From Candidatus Cloacimonadota bacterium (GTDB taxonomy: Bacteria; Cloacimonadota; Cloacimonadia; Cloacimonadales; TCS61), in the NCBI GenBank assembly GCA_030445745.1, contig JASUTE010000007.1, forward strand, positions 3,367 through 67,366: a DNA stretch of 64,000 bases, written 5' to 3'. A program made the translations under genes and the position numbers. Below, one piece after another: positions 29,914 to 34,562 of this stretch (the first letter of the stretch is position 1; each line of letters starts with the position of its first letter). The notes under the pieces were generated by a model, which did not search any database, was not told the origin of the DNA, and worked only from the letters and a program-made list of their open reading frames with translations.

Positions 29914-30921
29914 TTAGTAACCTTCCGGATTATTTTTCTGCCAGCGCCAGGAGTCCTCGCACATTTTTAGTAGGTCATATTGTGCCTTCCAGCCCAAATC
30001 TTTAGCGGCTTTGGAAGCATCAGCGTAACATTCGCCGATATCACCGGGGCGTCTTGCGGTAATTTGGTAAGGAATTTTTTTGCCGCTAACCTGAGAAAAA
30101 GCAGCTATCACTTCCAATACGGAATATCCGCGCCCTGTCCCTAAATTATAGGTGACTATGCCGGGTTTTTCTTGTAATTTTTGCAAAGCTGCTAAATGTC
30201 CCCGAGCCAGATCGACCACGTGGATATAATCACGCACGCCGGTGCCATCAGCTGTTTGGTAATCGTTACCAAACACATTCAATTTTTTACGTTTTCCCAC
30301 AGCAACCTGAGAAATATATGGCATCAAATTATTGGGAATACCTTGCGGATCTTCACCCATAGTGCCAGAAGGATGAGCTCCCACTGGGTTAAAATAGCGG
30401 AGCAGAGCTACATTCCAGCTACTATCGGCATTGTAAAGATCGCGCATAATTTGTTCGATCATTAATTTGCTGGTACCGTAGGGATTGGTAGTATGTAGTG
30501 GGAAATCCTCGGTGATGGGTACCGTTTCCGGCTCGCCATAAACTGTTGCCGAGCTGGAAAAAACTATATCTTTAATGTTATATTGTGTCATAACTTGCAG
30601 AAGAACCAGAGAGCCATTCACATTATTTTCATAGTAAGCCAAGGGTTTAGCTACCGATTCTCCTACAGCTTTCAATCCGGCAAAGTGAATAACAGCTTCT
30701 ATGTGGTTTTCCTGGAATATCTTGTGCAGAGCTGCGCTATCACGAATATCTTCTTGGTAGAATTTAGGTTTATTACCTGTTAGGTTGGAAATGCGGTTCA
30801 ATACTTCTTGTTTACTGTTGGAAAGATTATCGATTATAACTACCCGGTGACCAGCTTGCATCAGTTCCACCACAGTGTGGCTGCCGATATAGCCAGTACC
30901 ACCTGTTACTAATATATTCAT
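29914..30921 (-). CDS. galE: UDP-glucose 4-epimerase
   Basis: An extended short-chain dehydrogenase/reductase that interconverts UDP-glucose and UDP-galactose for polysaccharide and LPS synthesis. The NAD motif [12 protein letters not shown] is at residues 5-16. The catalytic Ser/Tyr/Lys are in SSSATVYG and NPYGTSK. The GalE-specific [12 protein letters not shown] and [15 protein letters not shown] are present. Length 335 aa is normal. AAAGGA precedes the ATG at a somewhat long distance. The first 10 codons and about 60 bp upstream are part of a 90-bp direct repeat caused by a GIY-YIG element, but the reading frame of galE itself is intact. Confidence 0.97.
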
Positions 30922-30980
30922 ATAAGATTTATCCTTTCTTATGTTTAAATTTCAACTTACAGTTCTCGGCTAGTGGAATC
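30891..30980. repeat. Direct repeat at galE, inner copy (start codon of galE and upstream region)
   Basis: 90 bp identical to 31232-31321. It contains galE codons 1-10, the ribosome-binding site and upstream sequence up to the GATTCCACTAG motif. This inner copy is the one that now serves galE. Confidence 0.95.
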
Positions 30981-31231
30981 TCGCTTTCAGCGGGAATTTG
31001 AAAATGAATTTATATAATTTTTAAGACGTTTTTTAGGGCATCTTTTTTTAAACAAACTTCGTAATAAACTAATTTCAAAGGAACTCTATATTTTGTTGCT
31101 GTAACATCACGTTATTGTGTTGTTTTAACCGCTCTATTAAATCTTTAGTAAAACCGTAATAATATTTATTATCTTTTTAGCTTATAAGCACTTAGGTATA
31201 ATATTTCATTTTCAAATTATTCCACCTGGCA
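30981..31231 (-). mobile_element. Decayed GIY-YIG element inserted at the 5' end of galE
   Basis: A 251-bp segment between two identical 90-bp repeats. It carries the same 14-bp terminal inverted repeats as the intact element at hldD, AATTTGAAAATGAA (30995-31008) and TTCATTTTCAAATT (31205-31218). Its body is clearly homologous to that element but has an internal deletion of about 50 bp and several substitutions. Confidence 0.75.
30987..31215 (-). pseudogene. Broken GIY-YIG nuclease gene
   Basis: Homologous to the intact 92-residue nuclease at 32405-32683. Translation gives KYYT-stop-VLIS-stop-KDNKYYYGFTKDLIERLKQHNN, so two stop codons interrupt the first motif. A deletion of about 50 bp then shifts the frame and removes the conserved KREKYFKTHHG part. 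The deduced start (TTG/ATG overlapping the leader stop) and the end inside a hairpin are preserved. The extra decay suggests it is older than, or less needed than, the hldD copy. Confidence 0.8.
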
Positions 31232-31262
31232 AGCCAGTACCACCTGTTACTAATATATTCAT
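31212..31262 (-). CDS. 16-codon chimeric leader: galE codons 1-10 plus LPGGII
   Basis: The outer copy of the galE start reads [10 protein letters not shown] and runs straight into the element, giving LPGGII and a TGA that overlaps the nuclease start (TTGA). It keeps the galE ribosome-binding site. It matches the leader at the hldD element codon for codon after position 10. Probably a translated truncated start used for coupling, not a functional peptide. Confidence 0.5.
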   Translation of the reverse strand: MNILVTGGTGLPGGII

Positions 31263-31321
31263 ATAAGATTTATCCTTTCTTATGTTTAAATTTCAACTTA
31301 CAGTTCTCGGCTAGTGGAATC
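31232..31321. repeat. Direct repeat at galE, outer copy
   Basis: Exact 90-bp copy of 30891-30980. Beyond it the flank differs: here a CCCGA/TCGGG hairpin, while the inner copy continues into the element's own CGCTTTCAGCG hairpin. The outer flank is therefore probably the original host sequence. Confidence 0.95.
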
Positions 31322-31381
31322 CCGATCTCCTCGGGTGAAGTAAACTAAGATTCAATCCTAAGCTACAGAACTGTTTTATTT

Positions 31382-32341
31382 CTATAACTCGGGTAAAAAG
31401 CCGTTTTCTGTTTGTAGTAGATTTAAATATTGGGAAACACCTTTTTCTAAAGAGGTGAATTCTGTTTTATACCCGGCATTTCTCAGGTTATTCAGATCGG
31501 CTTTAGTAAAGGTTTGGTATGTATCTTCCAGATCTTGGGGGAAAGGGATAGGCGCGATGCTGCTTTCTGGAAATTGGGATTGTACAAGTTCAGCCAGTTT
31601 TTGAAAACTGCGTGCTTCCCCACTCCCACAGTTAAAAATACCCGATTTTTCCAAATTTTCCAAGAAAAATAAATTAACATCAACAGCATCCTCTACCCAG
31701 ATAAAATCGCGCAGATAGTTGTCACTGCCTTCAAACACACTTATCTTTCCCTCTTTTGCAGCCTGATGATAGAAGTGATAAATCACCGAAGCCATGCGAC
31801 CTTTATGGTTTTCTTGAGGACCATATACATTAAAATAGCGTAGCCCGACAACCTGAGATAGCTCTTTTTTGCTAAAATTATTAGTTAGACGGCGGACGTA
31901 GTTGTCGAAAGCAAATTTGGAAAAACCGTAGATGTTCAAGGGATATTCACTGGCGCGTTCTTCTTTGAAACCATTTTTGCCATGGCCATAAGTGGCAGCA
32001 CTGGAAGCATAGATGAAATTTATTTTGTTGTTAAGGGCAAACTTAAGTAATTTTTTGGAATAAGTGTAGTTGTTATCCATCATATATTTTCCATCTTGTT
32101 CAACCGTGGAAGAGCAGGCACCTTGATGAAAGATGATATCGTAATCGTTGAATTGCTCCAACTGTTGTAAAAAATCATTTTTGTTTATGTAATCTAGGAA
32201 TTTTAATCTATTCAAATTTAAATGTTTGGCAGCATTACTAAGGTTATCTACAATTGTGATATGGTCAAAACCACGTTTGTTGAGTCCATATACCAGGTTA
32301 CTGCCGATGAAGCCAGCCCCTCCAGTTACTATTATTTTCAT
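31382..32341 (-). CDS. hldD: ADP-L-glycero-D-manno-heptose 6-epimerase
   Basis: Makes the heptose precursor of the LPS inner core. The start is placed at 32341 (MKIIVTGGAGFIGS) with AAAGGA upstream; an ATG six codons earlier has no such site. The Rossmann motif GGAGFIGS is at residues 7-14. The catalytic YGFSK and the heptose-epimerase strings FHQGACSSTVEQD, RYFNVYGPQENHKGRMASV and YLRDFIWVEDAV are all clear. Product length is 319 aa. It has no partner genes nearby, but GT9 heptosyltransferase-type and GT4 genes occur at 57072-59245. Its first 10 codons and upstream region are duplicated by the GIY-YIG element. Confidence 0.94.
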   Translation of the reverse strand: MKIIVTGGAGFIGSNLVYGLNKRGFDHITIVDNLSNAAKHLNLNRLKFLDYINKNDFLQQLEQFNDYDIIFHQGACSSTVEQDGKYMMDNNYTYSKKLLKFALNNKINFIYASSAATYGHGKNGFKEERASEYPLNIYGFSKFAFDNYVRRLTNNFSKKELSQVVGLRYFNVYGPQENHKGRMASVIYHFYHQAAKEGKISVFEGSDNYLRDFIWVEDAVDVNLFFLENLEKSGIFNCGSGEARSFQKLAELVQSQFPESSIAPIPFPQDLEDTYQTFTKADLNNLRNAGYKTEFTSLEKGVSQYLNLLQTENGFLPEL

Positions 32342-32415
32342 AAGTTTAAATCCTTTCATTAAAAAAAATATAACTTTATGTTCTCGGCCAGTGGAATCCC
32401 GCTTTCAGCGGGAAT
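32310..32415. repeat. Direct repeat at hldD, inner copy
   Basis: 106 bp matching 32699-32804 with a single mismatch (G at 32387, A at 32776). It holds hldD codons 1-10, the ribosome-binding site, the GATTCCACTGG motif and the CCCGCTGAAAGCGGG hairpin. This copy now serves hldD. Confidence 0.95.
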
Positions 32416-32683
32416 TTGAAAATGAATTTAAATAATTCTTAAGACGGTTTTTCAGAAACATTTTACCATGATGGGTCTTAAAATACTTTTCTCTTTTTAG
32501 GGCATCTTTCTTATTAAAACAAACTTCGTAATAAACTAATTTCAATGGAGTTCTATATTTCGTTGCTGTAATATCACTGTTATTGTGTTGTTTTAACCGC
32601 TCTATTAAATCTTTAGTAAAACCGTAATAATATTTATTATCTTTTTCGCTTTTAAGTACATAGGTATAATATTTCATTTTCAA
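32405..32683 (-). CDS. Small GIY-YIG nuclease-family protein
   Basis: 92 residues from a TTG at 32683, or 90 from the ATG at 32677; GGTGG lies 6 nt before the TTG. It is a single-domain GIY-YIG (URI/COG2827-like) protein. YYTYVLKS and NKYYYGFTKDLIERLKQHN carry the two motifs and the arginine helix. KLVYYEVCFNKKDALKREKYFKTHHG carries the usual glutamate region. The stop codon lies inside the CCCGCTGAAAGCGGG hairpin. GIY-YIG domains cut DNA in UvrC, homing endonucleases and restriction enzymes; the role of free-standing small versions is poorly known. It is flanked by 106-bp direct repeats, and its start overlaps the stop of a leader derived from hldD. Confidence 0.85.
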   Translation of the reverse strand: MKMKYYTYVLKSEKDNKYYYGFTKDLIERLKQHNNSDITATKYRTPLKLVYYEVCFNKKDALKREKYFKTHHGKMFLKNRLKNYLNSFSNSR

Positions 32684-32698
32684 ATTATTCCACCTGGC
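32416..32698 (-). mobile_element. Intact GIY-YIG element inserted at the 5' end of hldD
   Basis: A 283-bp segment between 106-bp direct repeats. Its ORF is bracketed by 14-bp perfect inverted repeats, AATTTGAAAATGAA (32413-32426, touching the repeat) and TTCATTTTCAAATT (32673-32686). The junction with the host codons forms CTGGC-TT-GCCAG, the same as at galE. No transposase is present, so mobility would depend on the nuclease and host repair. Confidence 0.72.
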
Positions 32699-32730
32699 AA
32701 GCCAGCCCCTCCAGTTACTATTATTTTCAT
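32680..32730 (-). CDS. 16-codon chimeric leader: hldD codons 1-10 plus LPGGII
   Basis: The outer copy of the hldD start reads MKIIVTGGAG and continues LPGGII to a TGA that overlaps the nuclease TTG start (TTGA). It keeps the hldD ribosome-binding site, so ribosomes loaded there could reinitiate on the nuclease ORF. The same design occurs at galE. Confidence 0.5.
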   Translation of the reverse strand: MKIIVTGGAGLPGGII

Positions 32731-32804
32731 AAGTTTAAATCCTTTCATTAAAAAAAATATAACTTTATGTTCTCGACCAGTGGAATCCCGCTTTCAGCGG
32801 GAAT
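32699..32804. repeat. Direct repeat at hldD, outer copy
   Basis: Differs from 32310-32415 at one position only. It drives the leader and, presumably, the nuclease ORF. High identity suggests recent insertion or continuing gene conversion. Confidence 0.95.
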
Positions 32805-33346
32805 ATTTTTCCTAAGCATGCTTTTCTTGGACTTTGCAGTAAATTAGCATTATCAGATTTCTGCAAAATTTTCTTAAAGTTTTTTTATAAGTTTTCTCCG
32901 CCCACTAAATTCTACCACAATGAAAAATTCCAGCAGTTTTCAGGTAGCCTAATATTTCTGAGCAGAGTTTTCTCTGTCTTCTGCTTGGAAACGGAAACGA
33001 GGATTTTGTGGCTTCTCTTAAGCTATATCCAGGTCAGGTAAATTTGCCAATCTCAGCTTTTTGATAGAGTCCATTTTCAACATTTTTTCGGCAACATTCT
33101 ATCGTTGCGCCTAAATGAATAACATCGAGATTTAGCTGGTCCGATTCTTTGCTTTAGCTGTTGGCGAAATAAACGAGCAAATAACCAGATAACCCCAGCG
33201 TTTCAAAGAGGACAAAATCTATTGCAAAAATTTACTAGGGATATTACTCGGTTTAATAAATCGGGGATGATGACGAGTTTTATTTCATAATTTTTTTGCA
33301 AAATAAAGCAATGTCAAAATTGCATATTCACAGTGAAGTGAAAGTT
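32805..33346. other. 542-bp stretch without a recognisable gene
   Basis: Neither strand gives a frame longer than a few dozen codons. Short minus-strand fragments look vaguely protein-like but match nothing I recognise. It may be an eroded gene. No RNA, terminator or promoter stands out. Confidence 0.4.
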
Positions 33347-34171
33347 TCAAAAGAACTTCCTCATCTTTATAATAAATTTTTCCAGTTCGTCTTTTTTGAT
33401 CTCCATTCCTAGCGGAATATGAGGCTTATTAGCACCGTGAAAATCAGAACCACCAGTTATTATAAGGTCGTACTTTGCTGCCAGATTTTTATATTCTGTA
33501 ATTTGTTGAGTTTTATGTTGAGAATAATAAACTTCTATTCCTTGTAGTCCCTCGTAAGCCAGGTCGTGTACAAGACTTTCCAGTTCTTGTGCTTGCAAGC
33601 CGGTTTGACACGGATGCGCCAGAGCTGCAAAACCACCTGCAGCACGAATCAGTTGGATTGCTTCAGCCGGTTCCATTCGCTTTTTGTCTAAATAGAACGG
33701 CGCCCCTTTTTTTAGGTATTTATCAAATGCTTCTTGTTTGTTTTGTACATATCCTTTTTGTAATAGAAGTTGAGCAAAATGGGGACGTCCAACTAAATCG
33801 CTACCAGCTACTTTTACCAATTCATCCCAGCTGATTGCAAACCCGTGTTTTTGTAGGTTTCCCACCATTTTATAATTACGTTTTTCTCTAAATTCCTGAA
33901 GTTGTGTGAGTTTTTTTTGTAAAGGTTGATAGTTGGAATCGACTCCATATCCCAGAATATGCAAGGTTTTAGGGTATTCAGCACTTATTTCCAGCCCGGG
34001 AATCAGCCGCAATTCATTGGGAATTTTCTCTATCTGGTTATAGGCGTCTAAGGTGTCGTGATCGGTTATAGAGAGTAGGGTAATTTGAGCATCAACAGCA
34101 GCCTGTAACAAACTAGAAGGGCTATAGGAACCGTCGGATGCGGTAGTATGAGTGTGTAGATCGATAAACAT
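33347..34171 (-). CDS. PHP-domain phosphoesterase (TrpH/YciV type)
   Basis: The start is set at 34171 (MFIDLHTHTTASDGS) with AAAGGAAG upstream. The 274-residue protein is a PHP metal-dependent phosphoesterase. HxH is in DLHTHTTASDG, then ITDHDT, GLEISAEY, HILGYGVD, ALAHPCQTG and the C-terminal GGSDFHGANKPHIPLG. This subfamily includes YciV/RNase AM, which trims RNA 5' ends or hydrolyses 3',5'-nucleoside bisphosphates; which activity applies here is unknown. A paralogue with the same motif order lies at 55765-56598. It is 46 nt downstream of ssb. Confidence 0.9.
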   Translation of the reverse strand: MFIDLHTHTTASDGSYSPSSLLQAAVDAQITLLSITDHDTLDAYNQIEKIPNELRLIPGLEISAEYPKTLHILGYGVDSNYQPLQKKLTQLQEFREKRNYKMVGNLQKHGFAISWDELVKVAGSDLVGRPHFAQLLLQKGYVQNKQEAFDKYLKKGAPFYLDKKRMEPAEAIQLIRAAGGFAALAHPCQTGLQAQELESLVHDLAYEGLQGIEVYYSQHKTQQITEYKNLAAKYDLIITGGSDFHGANKPHIPLGMEIKKDELEKFIIKMRKFF

Positions 34172-34217
34172 AATACTTCCTTTAATGATGTGGCAAATAG
34201 GGTGTGGCGCCAAGCTC

Positions 34218-34562
34218 CTATTTTTGTGGATATTCCAAAATGTGGAGTTTGGTGGCGCGAATTCGTACCCGAGCTTTCTTGTTGAGATCTTTGTCTTCCC
34301 AACGGTCTTGTTTCAGGGTACCTTCCACTATTACAGGGGTTCCCTTCTTGCAATACTGTTGGTAACGGTCCACCAAACCTCCCCAGAGTTCTACCTCGAA
34401 ATAGGAGGTGAACTGCTGCCACTGACCTTTTTTGTCCTTGTAAGGATGATCATGTGCCAGATCAATTCTAAGGGTACGGGTATCGCCAACTTCACGTATG
34501 TCACTTTCCCTGACCACGTTCCCAGCTATTTGTACATTATTTATGTTTGGAATACGTGACAT
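34218..34562 (-). CDS. ssb: Single-stranded DNA-binding protein
   Basis: An OB-fold protein of 114 residues with the SSB pattern: INNVQIAGNVVRESDIR, then TLRIDLAHDHPY, TSYFEVELWGGLVDRYQQYCKKGTPVIVEGTLKQDRWEDKD. It lacks the long acidic C-terminal tail (ending DxPF) through which classical SSB recruits repair proteins; it stops at LHILEYPQK. It may therefore be an accessory SSB rather than the main one. An AAAGGAAAG site precedes the ATG. Confidence 0.85.
   Translation of the reverse strand: MSRIPNINNVQIAGNVVRESDIREVGDTRTLRIDLAHDHPYKDKKGQWQQFTSYFEVELWGGLVDRYQQYCKKGTPVIVEGTLKQDRWEDKDLNKKARVRIRATKLHILEYPQK

Follow-up and report, generated by a model that had tools for sequence, protein, structure and literature searches.

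A putative homing-type GIY-YIG element that may sever bacterial epimerase genes at a conserved motif and supply a replacement 5' end

Selfish elements in conserved genes normally spare their host through an intron, an intein or the duplication of a tRNA end. In a Candidatus Cloacimonadota genome, a small GIY-YIG nuclease ORF lies at the start of a protein gene, hldD, between two copies of a sequence that holds the gene start, and the gene is intact. How could such an element enter a coding sequence and leave a complete gene behind? We addressed this question from the window, the whole 64,000-nt stretch analysed (contig C32 of a 2.04-Mb genome in 38 contigs), and from related loci in other genomes.

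The hldD and galE loci

The hldD-like NAD-dependent epimerase gene (31382..32341, minus strand) was intact, with its ATG at 32341 and a Pfam Epimerase match of 4e-44. The initial annotation of the window had described 106-nt direct repeats around an intact GIY-YIG ORF at this gene, and both features held up. The repeats (32310-32415 and 32699-32804) agreed at 105 of 106 positions (99%), and a repeat of this length with one mismatch excludes chance. The ORF (32405..32677, minus strand) encoded 90 aa from its ATG, with a TTG two codons earlier at 32683, and matched Pfam GIY-YIG with E=2.5e-16. It was the only ORF in an element of about 280 bp, which carried no transposase gene. The perfect 14-nt inverted repeat around the ORF (32413-32426 and 32673-32686, unstranded) was also present as described, within a longer terminal inverted repeat that was imperfect (GCCAGGTGGAAT..ATTCCACTGGC). 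A palindrome within the 106-bp repeat had three occurrences in the 64 kb, where the expected number was 0.01. A REP-like palindrome family was rejected, as the CCCGCTTTCAGCGGG palindrome had only three copies in the genome.

The 106 bp had been taken for hldD's own 5' region. About 70 bp of it was gene start, but the remaining ~36 bp of each copy (32380-32415 and 32769-32804) proved to be an element end with a hairpin. The inner copy consisted of the hldD 5' end in use (32310..32379, minus strand), which ran from the start region to the GGCTT of the GxxGF motif and which we interpret as probably supplied by the element, and of the element 3' terminus (32380..32415, minus strand), with the terminal repeat ATTCCACTGGCC and the hairpin CCCGCTGAAAGCGGG. 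The outer, upstream copy held a second hldD 5' end, truncated at GGCTT^ (32699..32768, minus strand), followed by a remnant of the 3' terminus of an earlier element (32769..32804, minus strand; hairpin and ATTCCACTGGTCGAGAAC). The break, at GGCTT^, interrupted the codon that follows GAG. Here the truncated gene start met the element 5' terminus (32686..32698, minus strand; GCCAGGTGGAATA...), with which it formed the fold-back CTGGC-TT-GCCAG, and read into the element as a leader ORF (MKIIVTGGAGLPGGII; 32680..32730, minus strand) whose TGA lay 2 nt before the nuclease ATG.

A check of the same genome for further copies, as the initial annotation had proposed, revealed a second arrangement at galE, 1.4 kb from the hldD element. 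The galE-type epimerase gene (29914..30921, minus strand) was intact, and 104-bp repeats (30891-30994 and 31232-31335, 95% identical) surrounded a pseudogenised element, with junctions as at hldD. The 5' end in use (30891..30961, minus strand) was part of the first repeat copy. The second element (30962..31231, minus strand) contained a GIY-YIG ORF degraded by deletions and stop codons, which a protein search of the genome located at 31025-31215. Beyond it lay the outer galE 5' end, which was truncated (31232..31302, minus strand), and the end of an earlier element (31303..31335, minus strand), a remnant with a different hairpin (CCCGAGGAGATCGGG). The window repeats were locus-specific, hldD-type at hldD and galE-type at galE. 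At both genes, the stubs started at the base of a CCCG..CGGG hairpin (31321-31335, 32398-32412 and 32787-32801), and the hairpin sequences differed. These hairpin-based stubs look like what a deletion might leave as a scar. Similar hairpins (CCCGAT..ATCGGG) were seen at the tRNA-type loci described below.

The native start was no longer present at the window loci, so the window alone could be read as carrying target-site duplications. A transposon-like element that leaves a duplication of ~105 bp through widely spaced nicks would account for repeats that are near-identical within a locus (99% at hldD, 95% at galE) and only about 63-74% alike between loci, as local duplication predicts. However, no transposase was present, the window repeat was partly element sequence, and the loci outside the window, described in the next section, already contradict this explanation, which we consider improbable. 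A mis-joining of repeats during assembly was also considered, since this metagenome-assembled genome is in 38 contigs and short direct repeats are easily mis-assembled. However, two loci of the window had a like architecture, which also recurred in genomes sequenced from isolates, among them a complete chromosome (L068, NZ_CP007451.1). An artefact of this kind is scarcely credible.

Gene starts at thirteen epimerase loci

The gene-start design was found at 13 loci, namely hldD and galE of the window, L011, L012, L061, L068, L097, L112, L116, L123, L125, L253 and L285. All were NAD-dependent sugar epimerase/dehydratase genes of Cloacimonadota and Bacteroidota. L011 and L012 came from Candidatus Cloacimonadota contigs (L056 carries the same locus as L011, and L064 the same as L012), and the other hosts were Lutibacter (L061), Draconibacterium (L068), Oceanihabitans (L097), Galbibacter (L112 and L125), Salinimicrobium (L116), Psychroflexus (L123 and L253) and another member of the Bacteroidota (L285). 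Each locus had the same layout, with a truncated start copy upstream, the nuclease ORF, and an intact start copy downstream. The break point GGNTT^ followed directly on the codons of the GxxGF/Y motif at 13 of 13 loci, a count to be read with the mutual relatedness of these loci in mind, as they are not fully independent. The epimerase profile covered the intact host genes that were scanned nearly end to end.

The initial annotation had asked whether long gene-start repeats accompany each copy of the element. They did so at the 13 epimerase-type loci but not among most close relatives. A general direct-repeat test gave 13 of the 80 best database matches against 6 of 221 controls, which places most close relatives outside the gene-start type. 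A survey of Flavobacteriales at a strict threshold gave 4 of 395 genomes and added one epimerase locus (L285), indicating that the type is rare there.

The origin of the two starts was clearest in Galbibacter, where one gene end was duplicated, the fused copy being foreign and the displaced copy native. Five congener orthologues of the L125 gene started with MKILxTGAAGFIGS, matching the displaced outer start MKILITGVAGF^, while the fused start MKNKDSKKNKRILITGCAGF had a foreign extension. L112 and L125 are non-orthologous paralogues of one genome. Their element cores were 94% identical and their element-borne leaders 78%, compared with 44% for the host gene bodies and 46% for the displaced starts. 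The likeness of element and leader between genes with unlike bodies and displaced starts implies that the nuclease and the replacement start move jointly between different genes.

Comparison with relatives also provided empty sites. In Salinimicrobium, the element was absent from all nine congeners. In eight of these the locus was syntenic, with the regulator gene upstream of the epimerase gene, and the distance from the regulator gene to the part of the epimerase gene that could be aligned was about 100 bp there versus about 510 bp in L116. The outer start of L116 had no match to the congeners' start, which leaves the call of native and foreign starts unclean in this genus. A further ~900 bp directly downstream of the epimerase gene (L116:3755-4678) was absent in most Salinimicrobium congeners. 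In Psychroflexus, the outer start was 81% and the fused start 71% identical to the nearest congener, a call that is uncertain because the flank of that congener resembles an element end. The empty hldD sites anticipated in relatives of the window genome were present, as six of six family orthologues had a single start and no element. Thus a fixed, conserved site was empty in nine Salinimicrobium, five Galbibacter and six hldD orthologues.

These comparisons changed the account of how the repeats arose. The initial annotation had assumed that insertion simply duplicated the expression signals of the host; this does not fit, as the starts differ at most loci and the fused start in Galbibacter is element-borne. 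Its view that the element borrows the host start and leaves the host gene intact agreed with our results. Mobility, which it had offered as conjecture, is now backed by the empty sites and by the shared element and leader, and movement is still best described as probable.

A proposed route and the near-identical repeats

We propose that this is a GIY-YIG element of the homing type, which severs epimerase genes at a conserved motif while bringing a 5' end of its own as the replacement, and we give this reading a probability of roughly 0.75. The nuclease would cut an NAD-dependent sugar epimerase/dehydratase gene at the GxxGF/Y codons, about 10-25 codons from the start. The break would then be repaired from an allele or a paralogue that carries the element. 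This repair would bring in both the element and a new 5' end, which would extend from the start codon through GxxGF and be joined in frame to the remainder of the severed gene. The native 5' end would remain upstream as a short leader ORF with its stop beside the nuclease start, an adjacency that would let the nuclease borrow the host promoter, ribosome-binding site and start. Since GGNTTY-ATHGG would be rebuilt, the site could be entered again or could recombine, yielding tandem units with near-identical repeats. The hldD and galE loci of the window would be later-round loci, at which the earlier element has shrunk to a hairpin-bearing stub.

The similarity between the two starts of each locus bears on this last step. 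At eight of the nine loci that lacked an element remnant upstream, the starts were just 53-80% alike, and the homology faded near or before the start codon. The most similar pairs, compared across the last 60 nt ahead of the break, were those of hldD (100%), galE (98%) and the inner pair of L061 (93%). In all three, the outer copy had a complete element or an element end upstream of it, and the homology continued into that element end. The exceptions were L097, with 97% and no remnant, and L012 (75%) and L068 (57%), with a remnant. The L061 array combined both states, as its outermost start (MKKVLVTGMAGF) was 53% identical to the next, which was followed by two near-identical element-type starts (93%). 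A simple target-site duplication was therefore rejected outside the window; the long-duplication transposon would, moreover, leave a fused start that is foreign and common to two Galbibacter paralogues unaccounted for.

The near-identical window repeats are read as the mark of a later round, given the remnant of an earlier element upstream. The 106-bp repeat would then comprise ~36 bp of element end and ~70 bp of supplied start, left by a second entry or by duplication of the unit. In the latter case, tandem duplication or unequal crossing-over would have copied an element-plus-gene-start unit after one insertion, with no second homing. The tandem arrays in L061, L012/L064 and L068 are consistent with this, as are the element remnants that precede both copies in the window, and we give it somewhat less than an even chance. 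Such duplication leaves the first insertion, with its foreign start, unexplained, and would thus be an addition to the homing explanation rather than a replacement for it.

At the junction, the element opened with bases that can pair with the host sequence immediately 5' of the break, leaving a 2-nt loop. In addition to that of the window, fold-backs such as CAGGGT-TT-ACCCTG, CTGGGT-TC-ACCCAG and GGTT-TC-AACC were observed at other loci. A fold-back of 4-6 bp with a 2-nt loop was present at 11 of 13 junctions tested and covaried with the target. When element ends were shuffled among hosts, equal pairing arose in 0.03% of trials (a fraction of 0.0003), an optimistic figure because the elements are related. 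The fold-back and its covariation hint at a guide-like or fold-back integration step. It is possible, though we hold it only tentatively and think it rather unlikely, that these elements form a class of bacterial homing elements that spread between paralogues, and not only alleles, by means of their own gene start, with a terminus base-complementary to the target.

In each of the 13 intact units, a nuclease start codon was placed within -4 to +13 nt of the leader stop (TGA-AA-ATG in the window), and at several Bacteroidota loci the nuclease stop overlapped the new gene start. This geometry suggests that leader and nuclease may be translationally coupled. A group I intron, another known RNA and an intein were rejected, as positions 30000-34500 had no Rfam match and the leader ORF stops within the element. 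The RNA fold of the element was unremarkable (z -1.5).

The nuclease, its relatives and known systems

The nuclease is about 85-90 aa in size. Pairwise dN/dS values between copies were 0.04-0.17, indicating purifying selection. Residues Y6, Y17, G19, R27, H31 and E63 were invariant in two alignments, and we take them to be the catalytic positions known from GIY-YIG enzymes such as I-TevI. The protein thus keeps a homing-endonuclease fold with catalytic-type residues (Pfam GIY-YIG 2.5e-16, dN/dS at most 0.17). A search of NCBIfam gave no match. No relatives were found in viral contigs, the sole sign of phage carriage was a weak PHROG homing-endonuclease match, and the search for plasmid carriage yielded a single match, of 37%, in Enterococcus.

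By sequence profile, the nearest solved structures were UPF0213 proteins (PDB 1zg2 and 1ywl), entries for hypothetical proteins that share the fold family of the small GIY-YIG nucleases. We know of no UPF0213 protein with element ends or a gene-start duplication. This kinship and the purifying selection would suit a host repair or regulatory protein kept to regulate hldD and galE, with incidental duplicated promoters. That is very unlikely, given the patchy presence of the ORF, its occurrence at many unrelated sites (four-helix-bundle, integrase and tRNA genes), the precise break points at motifs, the decayed galE copy, and the six of six family hldD orthologues that lack the element.

The closest likeness to the homing-type reading was found outside bacteria. 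The initial annotation could name no counterpart for the self-restoring design, but the mobile ORFs (mORFs) of fungal mitochondria provide one. In Allomyces atp6 and in Glomus atp6, atp9, cox2 and nad3, a nuclease ORF and a foreign gene end are fused to the gene, the native end is displaced and the gene is still expressed; the nuclease is of the GIY-YIG type in Glomus atp9 (PMC3630166). The present elements likewise place an endonuclease ORF in a conserved gene with one gene end duplicated. However, mORFs replace the 3' (C-terminal) end in mitochondria, whereas the 5' (N-terminal) end is replaced here, on bacterial chromosomes. Unlike in mORFs, the displaced start feeds the nuclease, a paralogous gene family is targeted, and tandem units occur. 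A bacterial counterpart of mORFs was not found in the open-access literature, which is weak evidence of absence. The Seg proteins of T4-type phages are free-standing GIY-YIG nucleases that spread by break repair with co-conversion of flanks; their genes are intergenic, hundreds to thousands of bp from the cut sites, and the review mentions no duplicated gene end (PMC2988022). Like Seg, the nuclease here lies outside an intron, but it sits at a motif within a gene and carries a replacement end.

The proposed route would amount to a compact bacterial solution for protein genes, in which a spare start is carried, the native start drives the nuclease, and the gene is rebuilt. It would link bacterial GIY-YIG elements to fungal mitochondrial mobile ORFs, in cultivable hosts (Flavobacteriia), and would explain why some epimerase genes have an odd N-terminus and a duplicated start, features that annotation would misread.

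About 20 related elements split S23/four-helix-bundle genes at a few conserved motifs, such as SNIA^EG (L002, L014, L016, L058, L060, L062, L066, L071, L088, L089, L092, L096, L099, L101, L110, L118, L119 and L128). Their nuclease and terminal repeats were closely related to those of the epimerase type, one of them, in the window's own genome, being 56% identical. Unlike the epimerase type, they leave both halves of the gene open and bring no replacement part. We found no paper on S23-splitting GIY-YIG elements. Replacement ends were seen only at sugar-nucleotide enzyme genes or, possibly, RNA genes, a contrast that is consistent with selection for sparing needed genes. In L016, two S23-type genes were cut at an identical codon. 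Two further GIY-YIG ORFs of the window genome (G000:C9:4483-4725 and C9:9711-9920; L002 and L006) lay 5 kb apart on one contig, and both adjoined split four-helix-bundle genes.

More distant GIY-YIG ORFs were located at tRNA genes for Ser, Asn, Asp and Val (L017, L018, L021, L022, L024, L027, L028, L030, L031, L032, L033 and L037) or at tmRNA (L004 and L023), several with direct repeats of the 3' part of the tRNA. These RNA-gene loci possibly follow the same end-replacing logic. At L015, L264, L265 and L266, GIY-YIG elements adjoined or split integrase-like genes near codons of a conserved SAGLRLSE-type motif, as read from the sequence. Finally, in a KSB1 contig (L115:1-480), a GIY-YIG ORF was flanked by two ~107-bp sequences that comprise the element termini and lack an ORF; these two sequences may be non-autonomous (MITE-like) derivatives.
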